Shown: positions 52,401 to 64,000 of the stretch, piece after piece
Position numbering within the stretch: the first letter of the stretch is position 1
Layout of the letters: the number at the start of each line of letters is the position of its first letter
Source of the DNA: Antedon mediterranea
Taxonomy: Eukaryota > Echinodermata > Crinoidea > Comatulida > Antedonidae
Length of the DNA stretch: 64,000 nt
NCBI RefSeq assembly: GCF_964355755.1
Contig: NC_092676.1
Coordinates: forward strand, 25,340,288-25,404,287
Reading direction: 5' to 3'
Notes under the pieces: model-generated
What the model was told of the DNA's origin: nothing
Databases searched by the model: none
Seen by the model: only the letters and a program-made list of their open reading frames with translations
Translations under genes and position numbers: made by a program

Positions 52401-55400
52401 TATATACACATTAGACGTACAAAATGGTATGACGTCATCAAATGGCCACTTGAATTTAAAAATTAGGAATTTTTTTCTTTTTGTGTGGGTTATCACATTC
52501 AATAGAGCGCATCTCCGTTATTTGAGCCCGATTTTCGCACAACTTTTAGTATGTGCTTGCTCAATTAATTATTCTTCTAATGAGTTGTCAACATTTTTAT
52601 TTTGATGACGTCATCACGCGTAAAAACTTGAATAACCTAGGTCGTGTAATTTCAGCTACACCATACATTTGAATATCTTATAGCTCTTCAGAATTAAAGG
52701 TGACCTTGAAGATTATAACTTATTATGAAAGCTGATGAAATGTAGATATGAATTCATATTAAAATTAAGCCTATCGGATGTTGTGATGTTATCATATGGC
52801 CAGTTGAAGTTAAAAAGTAGTTTTTAAATTTCTTTAGTCAAAGTTATACAAATTTCAAAGACCGCGCATTGCGCTTCTACGTGTCAAATTTTCTTCCAAT
52901 CCTTATATTTATTTGCTCAATTCATTATCTTTCGAAATTGTCATCTTCGAGTTTATTTTGATATATCCATCATACCAAAACATTATAAGATGATGTGTGT
53001 CCCGTAATTTCACCTATGCTACACTGTATATAGATATACAGTATATACTGTATATTGTATATGGCATATACCGGTAATAGGCACAACTCAACACTATACA
53101 TATAATAGGATGGAATGTATCATCATTTTCCGATCGTATGATAACGTACGTGCATGTTTAAAACAAATTATTTTCAGTAATTAATTAATTAATGTCAATA
53201 AAATGATAAAAATGATCACCTATAATTCGTCAAAGTGACGAATTAAATTCTAGTTTTATATTATTTTTTTATTTATTTTTTTTTTTTTGTGGACCTTGAT
53301 CTTTGACCCTGACCCTTCAAAATTTAACCACAATTATATGATGTGTCATTGATCATTGTGGCTAAGTTTGGTGAGAATCGGATCAAAACTGTGGTCTCTA
53401 GGCAGTAAAATAGTTTTTTGTTAGTTGTGACCTTGACCTATGACCTTTCCCCCTCAAATTCGAACTCGTCCGAGCTTTTTGGCCATAGATCATTGTGTCC
53501 AAATTTGGTTAGAATCGGATAAAAACTGTGGCCTCCAGGCTGTTCACAGACACACACACAAACACACACACAAACATACAGGGGTGAAAACATAACCTCC
53601 TTGTAATAATGTACACTGAGAAATATATAGGTGCCCTCATATTTATGTTAAGGTTTTAACTTTTCCCAGTCCTGCAGGCCCAACAATGAATTACAGAGAG
53701 TTGGAAGAAGCCATTAACAAATGGACGGTAGAATTAGAAGAACAAGAAAAAGTGTTTCTACAACAAGCTACACAAGTCAACGCCTGGGATAGGTTACTGG
53801 TAGAAAATGGCGAAAAGGTGTGTTTCTTTTATTTTAGACAAACATATACACAAGATGCTCTACATAAACAAAGACTTATTATTAAGTCTTTGGGAGTGGA
53901 GTTGTAAATTGTCATGAGAAAAAAACCCTGACATATGACAGGTCTTGAACCCATGACCCTTAGATTGGTAGCCAAGCATCATAACCAAGCATCATAACAA
54001 TAAAGATTGAGTGGAGCCAAGCCACAGCTCCACTCAATCTTTTTAATCTTAGTAGTGAATCCTAAATACTGGTAGTGAAGTGAATAATGGTTGTGAACCA
54101 TCAGTAGTAATTATATGTGTTTGTTTTGTTTGGACTGCATTGAGCTCTGTCTATACTATCAACTATGTTGATGTTGATACCAAATATGGTAGTGATATGA
54201 CATCATCATGTCCATATATGGCACATCACATGAAGTTTGATAGTGTAGACAAGGGTTTAGTAGAGAATCCTTAAAAGAAAGAATGTTTGTGGACTATCAG
54301 TAGCAATTATATGTGTTTGAAACTCAAAAAAGTGTGATGTGCCCAAATATGGTAGTAATATACCCAAATATGGTAGTGATATGACATCATCTTGTCCATA
54401 CATCTGTCACATAAAGTTTGATAGTGTAGATAGGGCTTTAGATGTTTTAGATAATTCAATAAACCAATATTCCCTATGTTATTACCAGCAATAAGATGAT
54501 TATACATTAGTATCATTTTGTTCCAATTCCAACAGATAACAGTTTTACATAATGATGTGGAAAAAGTCAAAACAGATCAACAAAGGTATTTCATATAGTA
54601 TATTATATATTTTTATTTAATATTTAGATTGTATTGTTTCAGTATCATATAGTTAATACATACTAAATTTTTTGTTAAAGTTGGAAGTTTCATCTATGTT
54701 TTCTCAAAATGTTATGTATGTATATTTGTTTATAACATTTAGCTAAACTTTCCTCATTGATTAACTTTGCTGTTTTTATGGTTTTATGTACTTTATTTTG
54801 AAATGGCTAAAAATAAATATGATATATAAATACAAAGGCAAATTATTTTGTTTAAAAAGTGACAATGCTGTCGGTATCAGTGGCTGGATCTCAATGGAGT
54901 TACAAAAAAGCAAAAATCTCAATCAAAATGATAAAGTAAAACAACAAGAATGGTTTGTAGAGAGCTTTCTGCCAACACTAGCCTTTCATGATATGATATA
55001 TGATTTGATTTTTGCTTAAGAGTTGCCATACAAACAAATTAACATCTATATTATCCAGGTTGGAACATGAATTAGATTACATTGTTGCGCAACAAAGAGA
55101 ACTTGAAGACATGTTAACACCTTTAGAGGAATCCATCAAAACGCAACAGGGCTCGTTATTCACGCAGCATGCTGATGTTGAACGCGAACACACGTAAGTA
55201 GCATCTTAGAAAAAGAATATCTTTTTTAAAGATGTACTGTCCCCAAAAACATGAAAAATGAAGATTAATTAAATCGGTATTTGAATAGGTTATGTAGAAA
55301 AACTGGAAAAAATAATGTTTTCACTAATAAATGGATAAATTCAACCAAAACTCCTTGGCTGGCAAGCAATTTGACTATTTTTTACTTAAAATGACTTGAT

Positions 55401-57165: not shown

Positions 57166-57762
57166 GTCGGTAGCCACAGCCTCCTCTCAAATTTCAAATA
57201 TAGGTCAATGGTTTTGTCACCACCTGTTGATTGGCGTCGGTATGTATACTGGCGTGATTGTACAACATTCCCATCCAGGCCTAGCCAACTACTGATTTGA
57301 ATACAATACGCAAGACATGAGAATTCTCCATTTTGAAGGCCACTCATTTTTTAGGCTGCCTGCTAAAAGTAGGACAAATGTCAGGGTCTGCAAAACTATG
57401 TATATGATAATCTGTTTTGTTGGGGGTCAGAAAAACAAATATTGTTCTCTTCTCTTCTGCAGCCATCGGCAATATTGTATTATTGTTGCCATTGTTTTAT
57501 TGACCCTACGTAACGTACCTGAACAAAGAACAAACGTAACATGTAGCATTAACAACATCAAAGTCGGTTAAAGGGATTTGAAACTACTGTGTATAGCGCA
57601 GATTGTGGGAGCACATCGACTTACCCGCCAATGCAATTTGACTCCCTACTAGCACGTATCCGCGTTAACGGACGCATTCAGCGACAGCGCCCTCAGGTTT
57701 GGCAGTTAGCGCGTATCGCGATACGCTTCACTGGTTTGTTTTGAAATTTCGTCGCCGATTCG

Positions 57763-57829
57763 TATAAATATCAATAGTACCCCCTGTTTGTTTCCCTGTT
57801 TTAAGACAAAGTAAATCAACAAACTCAAC
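57763..57829 (+). promoter_or_regulatory. TATA box and 5' non-coding exon of the RAG1-like gene
   Basis: A strong TATAAATA at 57763-57770 is followed about 60 bp later by a good donor (AACTCAAC|GTAAGTT, GT at 57830-57831). The next exon begins after the acceptor TTTGGCAG at 58295, 4 nt before the ATG. A start site near 57795 would give a first exon of about 35 nt. This fits but is only a prediction. Confidence 0.45.
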
Positions 57830-58299
57830 GTAAGTTATATTTTTAAAATATATTAAACAAGATTTACACATACGTGTAAAATTTATAATTTATCTCAACT
57901 TTATAATGTTGGAAAAGTTTGATCATTTTATTTAGTGATAGGCCTAGATTTCGTCAATGACGAAGTCCGCAAAACTAATCTAGGTACTTAAGTATCTGCT
58001 TATATTTCTTTACACGAAGTTTTTGGTAATAAATGAAATGGTTTAAATTAAATTTGTATTAAAATAGAGACAAAATATCCTAGTAAGACTTGGGAAATAA
58101 TTATTTTTTTATAATTATGTTAGAATGTTTTACTGCTATTTAATAAGCCTATAATTAGTATTTTAGGCCTAGGCATAGTATTAATCAACATAAGTAGGCC
58201 TACTATGTGCTTTGTATAGACATACCAGACCTGTACCTGTATACCAGATAAGTACATTAGAATAGAGTAATCATAATTTTTTTTTTTTTTGGCAGATTG

Positions 58300-61200
58300 A
58301 TGGAAAACCACAAACAAATACTGTGTACACTCTGCAGAGTGTGTGGTATTAAATTAAACAAAGCCGGCTCTCGGTCAAAGAAAGTGGCAGACTATTGGGA
58401 ACAGCTTAATGTTAGCAGAGATGAAGATAGTAGCGTAACTCCATCGTCATTCTGTAATCTCTGCTACATCAAGTGTGTTGTCCAAAAACAACAAATTTCC
58501 TGCAAGGACTGGCCGCCACATAAACGAATAGGATGTAACATCTGTGAAGATAAACTACGAAAAGGTTAGTTAATACTGGTAGAGAAAATTTATTTTGTTT
58601 ATATTTTTAATGTACAGCAAATACTTTTAAAGCCATTGTTAATTGTTATCACATAGGTGGAAGGCCAAAGAAAAAGAAGAGGGGATGTGGAAATGCAGAG
58701 TGTCAAAGAAAAATGGCTCATACCTCATCAGTTACCAAGCATTTTGAACCAATAAACACAACACTAACAACTATTCCCGATTCTTACAACATTATCGGTT
58801 CTCTAAGACCATTCATGTGTTGCATCTGTAATGTATTGTGTGAATGTCCTGTCGAGTTACCATGTCATCATGTTGCTTGTAAAGCATGTGTTAATACTTG
58901 TTTTGTTGATGTCGAGTTCATGATTTGTCCTACCTGTTTAACTAATGTACACTACTTGTCTGTCACTGCTGTACCTGATCTTTTCATTCAATGTTATATG
59001 TCTGTTGCTGTCAAATGTAAGAAATGTCAGTGTCAGTTTGAATGTCGACAGTGTAATACACATGTGTGTGTCTTAAAAGAACACACTTATGCAAAACAAC
59101 CTTCCACAAGCCCTGTGCAAGCGAATGTCGAAGTTTTAGGGCACCAACTACTGTCTGCCAAAACAGCAGAAAATGGTATAGCTACCTTCAGATCAAAGGG
59201 GCAGGTACAATACATTTCTTTATTTTCTCATAATTACAATTGACCGTGTACATACTATACTGTTAAATTTATTCATATTTTCTTTTTTGTTTTGAAGACG
59301 GTTAGGTATATGAAGATACCTGCAGTTAGAGTGTCGTCAAATACAGCATCAAAAAAAACCAAAGACAGGAGGACACACCAGGTACAAAAGTTGATTGTTA
59401 ATGTTTTATAAGGGAACTTCTGAATCAATCGTCAATTTCAACAACTGATACCTTTGCTTTCACAGATTCAACAATTCAGAAAACTGATAAGTGGAGAAGA
59501 TGCTGAATTAGAACAACACAGACACGAATTTTCCCAATTAAATGAAGAATTAAAGACTATGCTTCAAACACCCATTAGGATGCCCCAAGGAGATATACTC
59601 TCAATGAGAACTCACCTTGGACTAAGTGGCTCTAGAACAAGATTATTAAAAAGGTATATTTTATTATTTAGACATTTATTTATTCTGAAATAAAACCAAA
59701 TTATTATTTCAACCTATTATTCAATCTACTTCATTTAAAATAAGCATCCGTTCCAAACTATTATTTCTTCTATTTTTAGATGGTTAGCAAAGTACCGGGT
59801 CGTTTGTGAATGCGAAGCCAGTATTGGCTGTCAAGTTGATGAGATCATAGGCGACAATCTGACATCTGAGTATGTGCCATTGTTAGTGAAAGATACCAAG
59901 ACAGATGAGTTGTTGCTCACAGATGTGCCATTAGTTGTAGTGAAAAACTTAAGAGTGAAAGTAACACAATTGTTAGATGAGCTACAAAGGTATAAATACA
60001 CACGTTTATCAAATGTTCTTTCTTTTTTTCATTAGATTTTTTTTTCAAAGCATTTGAAATATGAACACAATATTGTTTTATTATTGCTTTTAGTCTTGAT
60101 ATGCTTACTTGGCACAATGGTTTGATACCAGAAAATAAAATATGGATTAAACTAGGCGGAGACAAAGGAGGAGGAACTTACAAATTTATGCTGCAAATTG
60201 GCAATGTTGACCGGCCCAATTCTTTGAAAAATACAGTTACAATTTTGATATGGGAAGCAGGCGATTGCACCTACAATTTAAAAACAGGAATGGAGAGAAT
60301 TAGGAACCAAGTTGAAGACCTCAAGACATTGGTGTGGAAGTAAGTAGTTTATATCATAACAGTTCTGACAATTTATAAAAGTATTTACTATTTATGATTT
60401 CACTATATGTTTTGATTTATTTTTATTTTATTTCAGTGGAGAAGAAATTGAATTATTTGCATTCAGCTACAGTACTATAAATACAAATGTCGTGTTTATG
60501 GATTGTCTGAAGCAAAGTGGTAAGTATGTATTTTTTATGTTTCATAATTCTGTACATAATATATACCTCTTCCTTTATTTCAGTGGAAAAGAAATTGAAT
60601 TGTTTGCTTTCGGGGATTACGAATATGAATGCCGTGTTTACGGATTATCCGGAGCAAGTGGTAAGTACTGTAATTCTAATACACTGGAACCTAGTATTAT
60701 ATTAGGCAATATCTCATAAATAGTTTAATACTAAAAAAATGTATTTTTTATAGGACGACACTTTTGCTTATATTGCCTGAGTTCGAAGGGTAAAGTGGAT
60801 TTAACAAAAAGATCTCTAGAATCTATGAAGAAAGATTTGGAAAGTTTTGCAAGCAATGGAAGCATGTTGAAAAATGCGAAGTTTCACAACAACGTAATAA
60901 GTTCACCAATACTTGACATTGACATTGATCATGTAAGTACTGTAAAGCTCATAGATTGATCAAACTGTTTGTTTGATAAGAGTTGATAAGTTGATGCTTT
61001 TTATATCAGAAAAATTATATATATAATTTCTGCCTTGTATGATTAATGTTTGAATAAATATACCATCATCAGTTTTAAATAAAGAATGTTTCATTACAAT
61101 TAGGTTTGTCCACCTGGACTGCATATTAGCTTAGGCCTTGGGTTGAAGCATTATCAAAGTTTAGAGGATGCATGCCACACACTCGATAAAAAGATGGCCC

Positions 61201-62478
61201 AACAAGCTGACGGCATCAATGCAAGCATTGCTCGTAAAGAGTACATTAAGGTACATTATAATTTCATTTGTTGGTACCCTGTATACAGAGCATTCCATCC
61301 ATGTTACTTACAATGACCCTTTTAACCCTATTTTTCAGTTAGTGGAACATAATGAATGTTTGCGTTACCATTTAAATGAAAAGGAAAATCTGGAACAGGA
61401 GATAGGCCAAATGACTGATTATTTTAATGCTTTTAATTTACTTGGTCATGGAAATGATGATTGTGCAATTGAACTGATTACACAGATTAATCAGAAAAGG
61501 GAGAAATTAAATGCTCATGTAAGTATAAGAAATATTTTATTGTTATTATTGAACAAAGCAAATTGAATGAGAAAACTATGTGAATTATGTCATGATTATT
61601 TTGTAGAATGAACATATTGAAGCCACGCCACCGTCTCCAACTTTTTTGAAGAGAACGGGTCCCATTTGTGAGGAGTTGGACAAACGCTTGATCAAAATGG
61701 GCATAACAAGGCAGGCATACTGGGGACAGTGTTTTGTTGGGAACCATATCCATAAATTGTACATGGTAGGTATAAAGCTGACGTTGATGACTTACAAATG
61801 TGGCATGGGCTGTTTCAGTTTTTTTTTAATAATTGCATTTTGAATAAACAATAAATTAAATCATTTCAGACAACAAATATTAAATATTTAATGGATGGAA
61901 TAACCCACACTGTCCAAGCCATTTGTCCAACTCTTTTGAAGGAGGCTGAAGATGTAGCTGTGGCCTACACAAAGTTATTTAATGCATTTGGAGCCTGCCA
62001 CAGATTATACAATTCAGCAGAACAATTCGGGAATGCTGAAATTGATCAGTTGCGTATGTACAGTACAGAAATCTTTGTTAAATTTTAAATAATTGCATAT
62101 TTATTATTAAATAAATATTAAGCATTCAGAATATAAATGACAACTTTGCTTTTGTTACCTACAGAACAAAATATATCAATCTATAAAGAGATTTTCGCCA
62201 CATTCCATGAAACGCAGCCTCCAAAATTTCACATATTGTGCGAGCATATCATACCATGGATCAAGAAATGGGGGGTGGGATTAGGATTCCATGGCGAACA
62301 AGGTGGTGAGTCAATGCACGCAAGATTGAATGGCATCCAACGTGACTACCGTGGCAGAACAACAGACAGATTAACCATTTTGCTGTCAGTGGTGAAAAAT
62401 CACTGGGTTTCGTGCAGTCCATCAACTCTAAAGGCGATTCCTGAAAAGAAGGCCAATAAAAGGAAAATTGAGGAATAA
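58300..62478 (+). CDS. RAG1-like protein: N-terminal zinc modules, RING finger and DDE recombinase-type core
   Basis: Exons 58300-58564, 58657-59204, 59298-59381, 59466-59653, 59780-59989, 60094-60339, 60584-60660, 60754-60932, 61104-61250, 61339-61518, 61607-61765, 61870-62053 and 62165-62478 join without frame breaks to 926 residues. The N-terminus resembles vertebrate RAG1: LCRVCG near residue 12, FCNLC, WPPHKRIGCNICEDKLRKGG, a basic patch, then a C3HC4 RING at ~143-182 (C-x2-C, PCHHVACKAC, CPTC) and a Cys/His-rich tail. The core shows Asp455 (KLGGDKGGG), Asp525 (FGDYEYECRVYGLSGASG, aligning with RAG1 GYDEKLVREVEGLEASG), zinc pair Cys544/Cys547 (HFCLYC), His844-x4-His849 and Glu866 (GFHGEQGGESMHARLN, at the place of RAG1 ASEGNESGNK). 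All four RAG1 zinc ligands and the DDE triad thus have counterparts. No terminal repeats are visible, so domesticated gene versus mobile element is open. An alternative exon lies at 60437-60519. Confidence 0.88.
60437..60519 (+). other. alternative exon A of the RAG1-like gene (lacks catalytic Asp)
   Basis: Duplicate of exon B (60584-60660). Both follow TTTATTTCAG and end AGTG|GTAAGTA. A is 83 nt and B is 77 nt, so both have the same phases. A reads NGEEIELFAFSYSTINTNVV, then FMDCLKQSG; B reads NGKEIELFAFGDYEYECRVY, then GLSGASG. A net +5 and a later +1 nt shift the frame across the catalytic segment, and a YKCRVYGLSEAK remnant is visible in another frame. Either exon alone keeps the gene frame; both together break it. 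Whether A is used or is a decayed copy is not known. Confidence 0.75.
60584..60660 (+). other. exon B of the RAG1-like gene (carries catalytic Asp525)
   Basis: Encodes FGDYEYECRVYGLSGASG, the counterpart of the RAG1 Asp708 segment, directly followed in the next exon by the C-x2-C zinc pair. Separated from exon A by only a 64-nt intron. Confidence 0.85.
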
Positions 62479-62633
62479 TGTACTGGCACTGTTGTATCTT
62501 CACAGATTGTTGTATCTTCACAGGTTTTGAAGTTGATCTTAATAATGTTTTTTTAATGGATAGAGTATAAAATTTGTAATAATACAGAAAACAAAAAATC
62601 TCATGTGCAATCTTTGTGCCCAACAACAAATTA

Positions 62634-62900
62634 TTAAAGATGTATTGTCTTCCTGAAAAAAATAATTATTAAAACATTTTTTGTTGAATATGCCATTTGA
62701 ATGTCACCTAATAGTATCCACTTTGACCAAAAATTGGATCGAAAGAAAATGTATTTACCTAAAAAACTGTAATTTAAAGCAAAAAATAGTCAAATTGGCT
62801 GCCAGCCAATAGGTTTTTGGTTGAATTTAACAATTTATTTTGCCATTTTATAAGTAATTATTAATCTTTATTTTTCATGTTTTTTGAGGACAATACATCT
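62634..62900. mobile_element. MITE-2 copy, near complete
   Basis: Starts TTAAAGATGTATTGTC and ends GAGGACAATACATCT. Contains ACTTTGACCAAAAATTGGAT and GTCAAATTGGCTGCCAGCCA as in the copy at 31-350. Begins about 155 bp after the RAG1-like stop codon. Confidence 0.8.
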
Positions 62901-64000
62901 ACTACTAAGTACTGTATTACGTTACTGGATTTAAGTAGGAACTTTAAGAACATTCTTTCTTTCTTGTCCAAATATGAAAGTAATGTGAATTAGTTTACAG
63001 ATTTCCTATCTCTGTTGAAAGCTGAATGTACAACTAACTATTCAAATATTTTTCCAATCTTAGATTATCAGTTACTGATAACAAATACCTCATTAGAAAT
63101 AAATGTCGTCAATGTCATCGATCAAATTCTTTGATTTATTTGATGACCTATATCAATCATTTTGTTCTCTGTTATTTTGTTATATTATATTATATTTTAA
63201 TAGTGTTAACAATTCTTATAAAACAGTCTATAAATCAATAAATTATGTTTAATTATTTTTAAAAACTGGATTACATGCCATTCAATATATTTGATTAACA
63301 ATAACAATGTTGTATAATTACTTACCTATTTGACAATGGTATAATCCACAACAACCAATCACATAGTGTAAATTGGATCGTTCCATTTGTTTTATTAGGG
63401 GTAAGTACAATTGCATTTTTAAAAATATATAATATACTTGCATCAAACACAATCGTAAACATATTTTAGTTTATAAAAAAAACACTCTATTACAGAAAAT
63501 ACTTTTAGAATGTGTGGTAACAATTTCCTCGCTGATAAGTATGTATTTACAGATAAGACATGCGACTATTTAATGAGGTCGGCAGTATTCTGTTGATTGC
63601 GCAATCTTTAAAAAATGGCGTTTTAATTTGACAAACCGATAATTATAATTATAAATACTCAATTGCCATCTTCATTGTGTCGGATATAAGCAATATCAAG
63701 TTTCTTCTTGAAAAAATGAATGTTTATACAAATTGGTAAATGCTCATATTCCATGTAAATATCAGTAAAAGTTCACATTTTGCCCGGTTCCCATTCCGTA
63801 TATTCAATTATTTCCCGGTTATGACCATGTGCAATCCATAGTGAAACTATCCATATTACCCATAAGACCATAGTCCATTTTCAAAAAACTTCTAATAATT
63901 GGTATTATAAAAAATTAAATAACATACAAAAATTATGTTATTTTGTACCAAAAAAAACAGCAATATTCAAACAATATTATTTTTGCTTTAAAATGTGTTC
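62901..64000. other. AT-rich region downstream of the RAG1-like gene
   Basis: No exon, RNA gene or repeat family could be recognised. In particular no kelch-type (RAG2-like) frame appears on either strand before the window ends. Confidence 0.5.

Follow-up and report, generated by a model that had tools for sequence, protein, structure and literature searches.

A recently mobile Chapaev transposon with a RAG1-related N-terminal region in the genome of the crinoid Antedon mediterranea

Sequence analysis of a 64,000-nucleotide stretch of the A. mediterranea genome (part of contig C7, referred to here as the window) revealed a RAG1-like gene that is very probably the transposase gene of a Chapaev DNA transposon, autonomous and recently mobile. 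The N-terminal portion of the protein is related to that of RAG1, the recombinase of vertebrate antibody genes. The element has transposed recently, as its three near-identical copies occupy unrelated sites. The features of the gene and of the surrounding element are summarized in Table 1.

The predicted gene consists of 13 exons, which are separated by GT-AG introns and join into a single open frame of 926 amino acids (aa). An earlier reading of the window, made from the sequence only, had proposed one uninterrupted 13-exon frame, and this model was upheld. Spliced alignment recovered an identical exon chain in two further genomic copies, on C6 and C3, but this agreement weighs little, since the query was the predicted window protein and both copies are near-identical to the window. 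The exon chain is better supported by two diverged open models from elsewhere in the genome, L013 (919 aa, 44% identity) and L023 (907 aa, 28%), because both keep the same domain order.

Table 1. Features of the Chapaev element and its gene (window positions)
Feature	Position	Strand	Remarks
CTAG, left flank	57649..57652	.	would-be 4-bp target duplication site; right counterpart not found
Chapaev element, window copy	57653..64000, on to C7:25404495 (208 bases beyond the window end)	+	lacks the last 27 bases on the right
Left terminal inverted repeat CACGTATCCGCG	57653..57664	+	matches the C6 right end perfectly in inverted orientation
Candidate TATA box, TATAAA	57763..57768	+	putative
Possible 5′ UTR intron	57830..58295	+	gtaagt ... 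T-rich tract-ag; putative
Exon 1	58300..58564	+	residues 1-89; Chapa / RAG1-type zinc region: C9, C12, C52, C55, W71, H74, C79, C82
Exon 2	58657..59204	+	residues 89-271; RING pattern C143-C182, then zinc-like motif C209, C212, H231
Exon 3	59298..59381	+	
Exon 4	59466..59653	+	
Exon 5	59780..59989	+	
Exon 6	60094..60339	+	D455 codon 60161-60163 (predicted first catalytic Asp)
Exon 7a	60437..60519	+	tandem duplicate of exon 7 that lacks D525; phase and splice-site signals retained
Exon 7 (7b)	60584..60660	+	D525 codon 60615-60617 (predicted second catalytic Asp)
Exon 8	60754..60932	+	C544-x2-C547 at 60765-60776
Exon 9	61104..61250	+	invariant H606
Exon 10	61339..61518	+	
Exon 11	61607..61765	+	GNHxxK motif
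Exon 12	61870..62053	+	
Exon 13	62165..62478	+	H845-x4-H850, E867, E871 (62308-62310); stop 62476-62478
High-copy dispersed repeat, nested in the 3′ non-coding part	62740..62900	.	

A genome search with the gene gave at least 87 matches (49 of 287 candidates scored), among which were three copies, located on C7 (the window), C6 and C3. These share 6,556 bases starting from the CACG at 57653, over which C7 differs from C3 at two positions and from C6 at one, while C3 and C6 differ at one; their flanks are mutually unrelated. The C6 copy is complete (C6:8789464-8796046, 6,583 bp). It starts with CACGTATCCGCG and ends with CGCGGATACGTG, which form perfect 12-bp terminal inverted repeats, and has CCAG on both sides as a 4-bp target duplication. 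In the C3 copy the right end is two bases short, and an ATAT duplication can be read from its flanks only by assuming a small deletion at the junction. In the window copy the right end has been lost, which is why the CTAG at its left border has no counterpart; owing to this loss of 27 bp the copy could supply the enzyme and probably cannot itself move. The element extends past the end of the window and was, as a unit, invisible to the sequence-only reading.

A decayed older copy was identified on C5, and C4 and other places hold further fragments and relatives. The first 638 bases of the element occur at four places in the genome (all four candidates scored), as does a 601-base stretch from the 3′ part of the gene; both counts are lower bounds, and on these figures the element family looks small.

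The same genome contains further Chapaev elements. A second, distinct one of the Chapa-RING type, L013 (C3:30572062-30579241, i.e. L013 1563-8742; 7,180 bp), encodes the 919-aa open model; its ends match over CACGTATGTT and it is bordered by GCTG on both sides. A third lineage, with several similar copies, is represented by L022, L023 and other places on C1, C2 and C3. The open model of L023 includes both the Chapa and RING parts, and a simple check detected no CACG-type termini in L022 or L023. Locus L017 (C4:14568500-14574500) encodes a DUF1280 protein that is divergent; its model, derived by alignment, has neither a Chapa nor a RING part.

Target duplications of 4 bp were thus seen in both elements for which two ends were found (n=2), CCAG in the C6 copy and GCTG in L013. 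Chapaev transposons duplicate 4 bp of their target. Termini of the CA..TG type, arranged as inverted repeats, are present in the C6 copy and in L013 (CACG...CGTG); such termini are described as a rule for the wider group, together with target duplications of 2-5 bp (PMC12730594).

The N-terminal part of the protein contains the LCRVCG and FCNLC modules noticed in the sequence-only reading, as well as the C3HC4 RING pattern (C143, C146, C158, H160, C163, C166, C179, C182). The W-PPH module was also confirmed, although its spacing had been misread and is actually W-P-P-H-x4-C-x2-C, with four residues instead of five. Since the window protein alone gave only weak matches to solved structures and no Pfam RING match, a profile was built from it and six relatives of the same genome (26-44% identity; two of the six are near-duplicates). 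Compared with 177,635 distinct solved sequences, this seven-sequence profile matched best to RAG1 residues 102-421 (E 1.3e-17), which span the N-terminal zinc region and the RING; the first part of this match rests on the four full models that reach the N-terminus (window, L012, L013 and L023). The best protein other than RAG1 was the RING protein UHRF1 (E 9.2e-8). The Pfam family RAG1_imp_bd was found in two of the seven sequences (best E 3.4e-6) and the Pfam RING models in one of seven each, no RING model matching the window protein alone at E<=10. When used alone against solved structures, the window protein retrieved mostly RING proteins, with RNF213 best (8.7e-4) and the RAG1 RING (1rmd) at 3.8e-3. 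On these profile comparisons, the N-terminus and the RAG1 non-core region are homologous, with strong kinship. The name Chapa domain has been given to a truncated N-terminal part of RAG1 (PMC4411706), and two Chapaev subgroups, described in 2015 by Kapitonov and Koonin, carry Chapa followed by RING, as does RAG1 (PMC4411706). The same succession was recognized here through the match to RAG1 102-421.

In the core, residues D455 and D525 as well as the C-x2-C (C544, C547) and H-x4-H (H845, H850) motifs are present, as previously noted. The glutamate of the triad had been placed at residue 866, but this residue is glycine, and the nearby glutamates are E867 and E871. All of D455, D525, C544, C547, H845, H850, E867 and E871 are invariant in the seven aligned sequences (window and six relatives). 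In the profile alignments E871 is paired with the Glu of the RAG1 motif GNES, where the window protein reads GGES, and is most likely the catalytic residue. One chain in the RAG1 alignment has GNQS at this site, which we take to be the known E-to-Q mutant. C544 and C547 follow D525 at +19 and +22, the spacing found in RAG1 numbering (D708, C727, C730). CxxC and HxxxxH are located between the second D and the E, an arrangement of the DDE triad that is given as a rule for Chapaev (PMC12730594). Structure models of single exons (mean pLDDT 44.9 and 35.5) were too poor for a fold search.

The only Pfam family above its cut-off in the window protein is DUF1280 (hmmscan; score 65.2 bits, cut-off 25, E 8.3e-18, residues 290-510), and it was matched in all seven sequences scanned. 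DUF1280 corresponds to Chapaev transposases, which belong to the same clade as RAG1 (PMC3985635). A profile comparison with the RAG1 core, proposed as a check in the sequence-only reading, gave no match: PF12940 was not found in the window protein at E<=10, nor is it among the 19 Pfam families listed for the seven sequences at E<=1, in searches whose HMMER filters discard weak matches. A PF12940 search of the A. mediterranea genome was also without a match, but equally silent in 14 control genomes, and so says nothing on absence; a query of 80 RAG1 residues surrounding the catalytic Glu likewise gave no match at E<=1 and is as uninformative. A core-only profile of six sequences, compared with the same 177,635 solved sequences, placed RAG1 first at E 0.029, a value that holds for the chain (separate stretches have E 3 and 81), and the coiled-coil protein prefoldin second at E 0.062, among eight matches at E<=10. 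In this alignment C-L-x-C is paired with RAG1 CTLC, HxxxxH with HxxxxH, and GGES (E871) with GNES. We consider the kinship of the core with RAG1 real but ancient, and marginal by sequence.

The proposal that the protein keeps the full RAG1 domain order consequently holds for the N-terminal zinc and RING region (E 1.3e-17) and for the order CxxC, HxxxxH, Glu, but not for the family of the core, in which PF12940 was not recognized. Its suggested status as a separate branch of the RAG1/Transib superfamily gives way to a known Chapaev transposase core (DUF1280; PMC3985635) within a domain order that is already described (PMC4411706). The core does not fall into an unrelated transposase superfamily, since Chapaev is grouped with Transib/RAG1 (PMC4411706) and in the wider CMCT clade (PMC12730594).

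The non-coding parts of the element were also inspected. The TATAAA upstream of the gene and the gtaagt/ag pair that follows it suggest a promoter within the element and an intron in the 5′ UTR. Downstream of the gene (62480-64208) the longest frame between stops has 67 aa, and an antisense frame of 134 aa (62261-62665) overlaps exon 13. No kelch or PHD match at E<=10 and no Pfam family above its cut-off, as sought for a RAG2-like gene, was found in any of seven frames, i.e. six of 50-67 aa in this region and the antisense frame; a strongly split gene could escape such a search. The convergent RAG2-like gene expected of RAG1L/RAG2L elements was therefore not recognized in these frames. The repeat nested in this part is dispersed through the genome, where 3,199 first-look candidates were counted and 40 of them scored. 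Inverted matches to it are located at 55245-55395, upstream of the element.

The sequence-only reading had also considered a domesticated member, i.e. a RAG1-like host gene. The intact 13-exon frame and the right terminal repeat missing from the window copy would fit such a gene, but it should be immobile and without transposed copies, whereas the gene sits in a recently transposed element. Its three near-identical copies lie at sites that are unrelated, and one of them has inverted repeats and a target duplication; a decayed older copy is present on C5. We regard domestication as very improbable. An origin of the copies by segmental duplication or by duplication in the assembly has next to no probability: they differ pairwise at only one or two positions, as duplicates would, but the shared sequence begins at CACG and stops at the element end or at most 27 bases from it, the flanks differ, and CCAG borders the C6 copy on both sides.

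A RAG-like element (RAG1L/RAG2L, ProtoRAG) or Transib proper, in place of Chapaev, would account for the RAG1 N-terminal match and for the order of CxxC, HxxxxH and E, which is common to both. We judge this reading to be as improbable as domestication, given that the core is DUF1280 with PF12940 unmatched at either threshold, that the duplications have 4 bp against the 5 bp given for Transib (PMC8355894), and that the seven frames of the 3′ part are without a RAG2-like match. The transposase of a mobile Chapaev element thus remains by far the best explanation of the gene.

As for its action, the presumably expressed transposase of this Chapaev element would most likely bind the CAC...GTG ends, and the element would most likely be excised by the D455/D525/E871 triad, if the predicted fold and chemistry are correct. 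The triad would be supported by a putative zinc site formed by C544, C547, H845 and H850, and insertion would take place into a target with a 4-bp stagger. The Chapa zinc region and RING (homologues of the RAG1 non-core region) precede the Chapaev DDE core, and the RING, to judge from that of RAG1, may serve in dimerisation or ubiquitin ligation.

Exon 7 is preceded by a tandem copy, exon 7a, with its own AG and gtaagt, the same phase and no stop (83 bases versus 77). Use of 7a instead of exon 7 keeps the frame and replaces GDYEYE by SYSTIN; because D525 is thereby lost, the resulting isoform is predicted to be catalytically dead. Inclusion of both 7a and 7b, or of neither, breaks the frame. 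Both exons are carried by the C5 copy, in which 7a shows two differences and one 3-base gap, and in the fragment L018 only the 7a type is present; the corresponding introns of L012 and L013 (105 and 94 bases) hardly leave room for a copy of exon 7. Selection on 7a was considered and set aside: in the aligned part, window and C5 copies diverge by 3.3% in exons (65/1,954) and 2.0% in introns (26/1,270), so exons show no sign of constraint in the C5 copy, which therefore cannot decide the question for 7a. The kept phase and open frame could be chance, and exon 7a may be either a duplicate in decay or a brake that works through splicing. P elements have splice repressors, which offer an analogy for the latter. 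It seems unlikely, though conceivable, that 7a and 7b are mutually exclusive parts of a built-in brake, in which the 7a isoform, lacking D525 and retaining Chapa, RING and the remaining transposase, poisons the active complex.

Several known systems resemble the element described here. Transib and RAG1L/RAG2L transposons (PMC7204232) belong to the same broad CMCT group and share CA..TG termini (PMC12730594); the Antedon element differs from them by 4-bp duplications, no PF12940 match and no recognized RAG2-like gene. The Aplysia N-RAG-TP (Panchin and Moroz 2008, via PMC8355894 and PMC2996935) is likewise mobile and encodes a protein similar to the RAG1 N-terminus, but these accounts describe it as the N-terminal-like part only, and it is by this description that we set it apart. 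Vertebrate RAG1 has a homologous N-terminal zinc/RING region and CxxC, HxxxxH and Glu in the same order, whereas the core studied here is only marginally similar to it (E 0.029), is not matched by PF12940, and belongs to a mobile element with its own ends and without a RAG2-like match in the 3′ part. It has been argued that an ancestor common to RAG1 and Chapa-RING Chapaev passed on the RAG1 N-terminus along with the core (PMC4411706).

The closest counterparts are the Chapa-RING Chapaev transposons (PMC4411706), animal DNA transposons with the same domain order and a DUF1280/Chapaev core. This architecture is already described, and the present element adds a family to a known group, from which it is distinguished by its occurrence in this 354-Mb genome, recent mobility, 13 coding exons and a duplicated exon 7. 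It is a very young example of the group with an intact gene, and since one family offers this gene together with both ends and a target duplication, the role of a RAG1-type N-terminus in a transposase becomes testable in cells.
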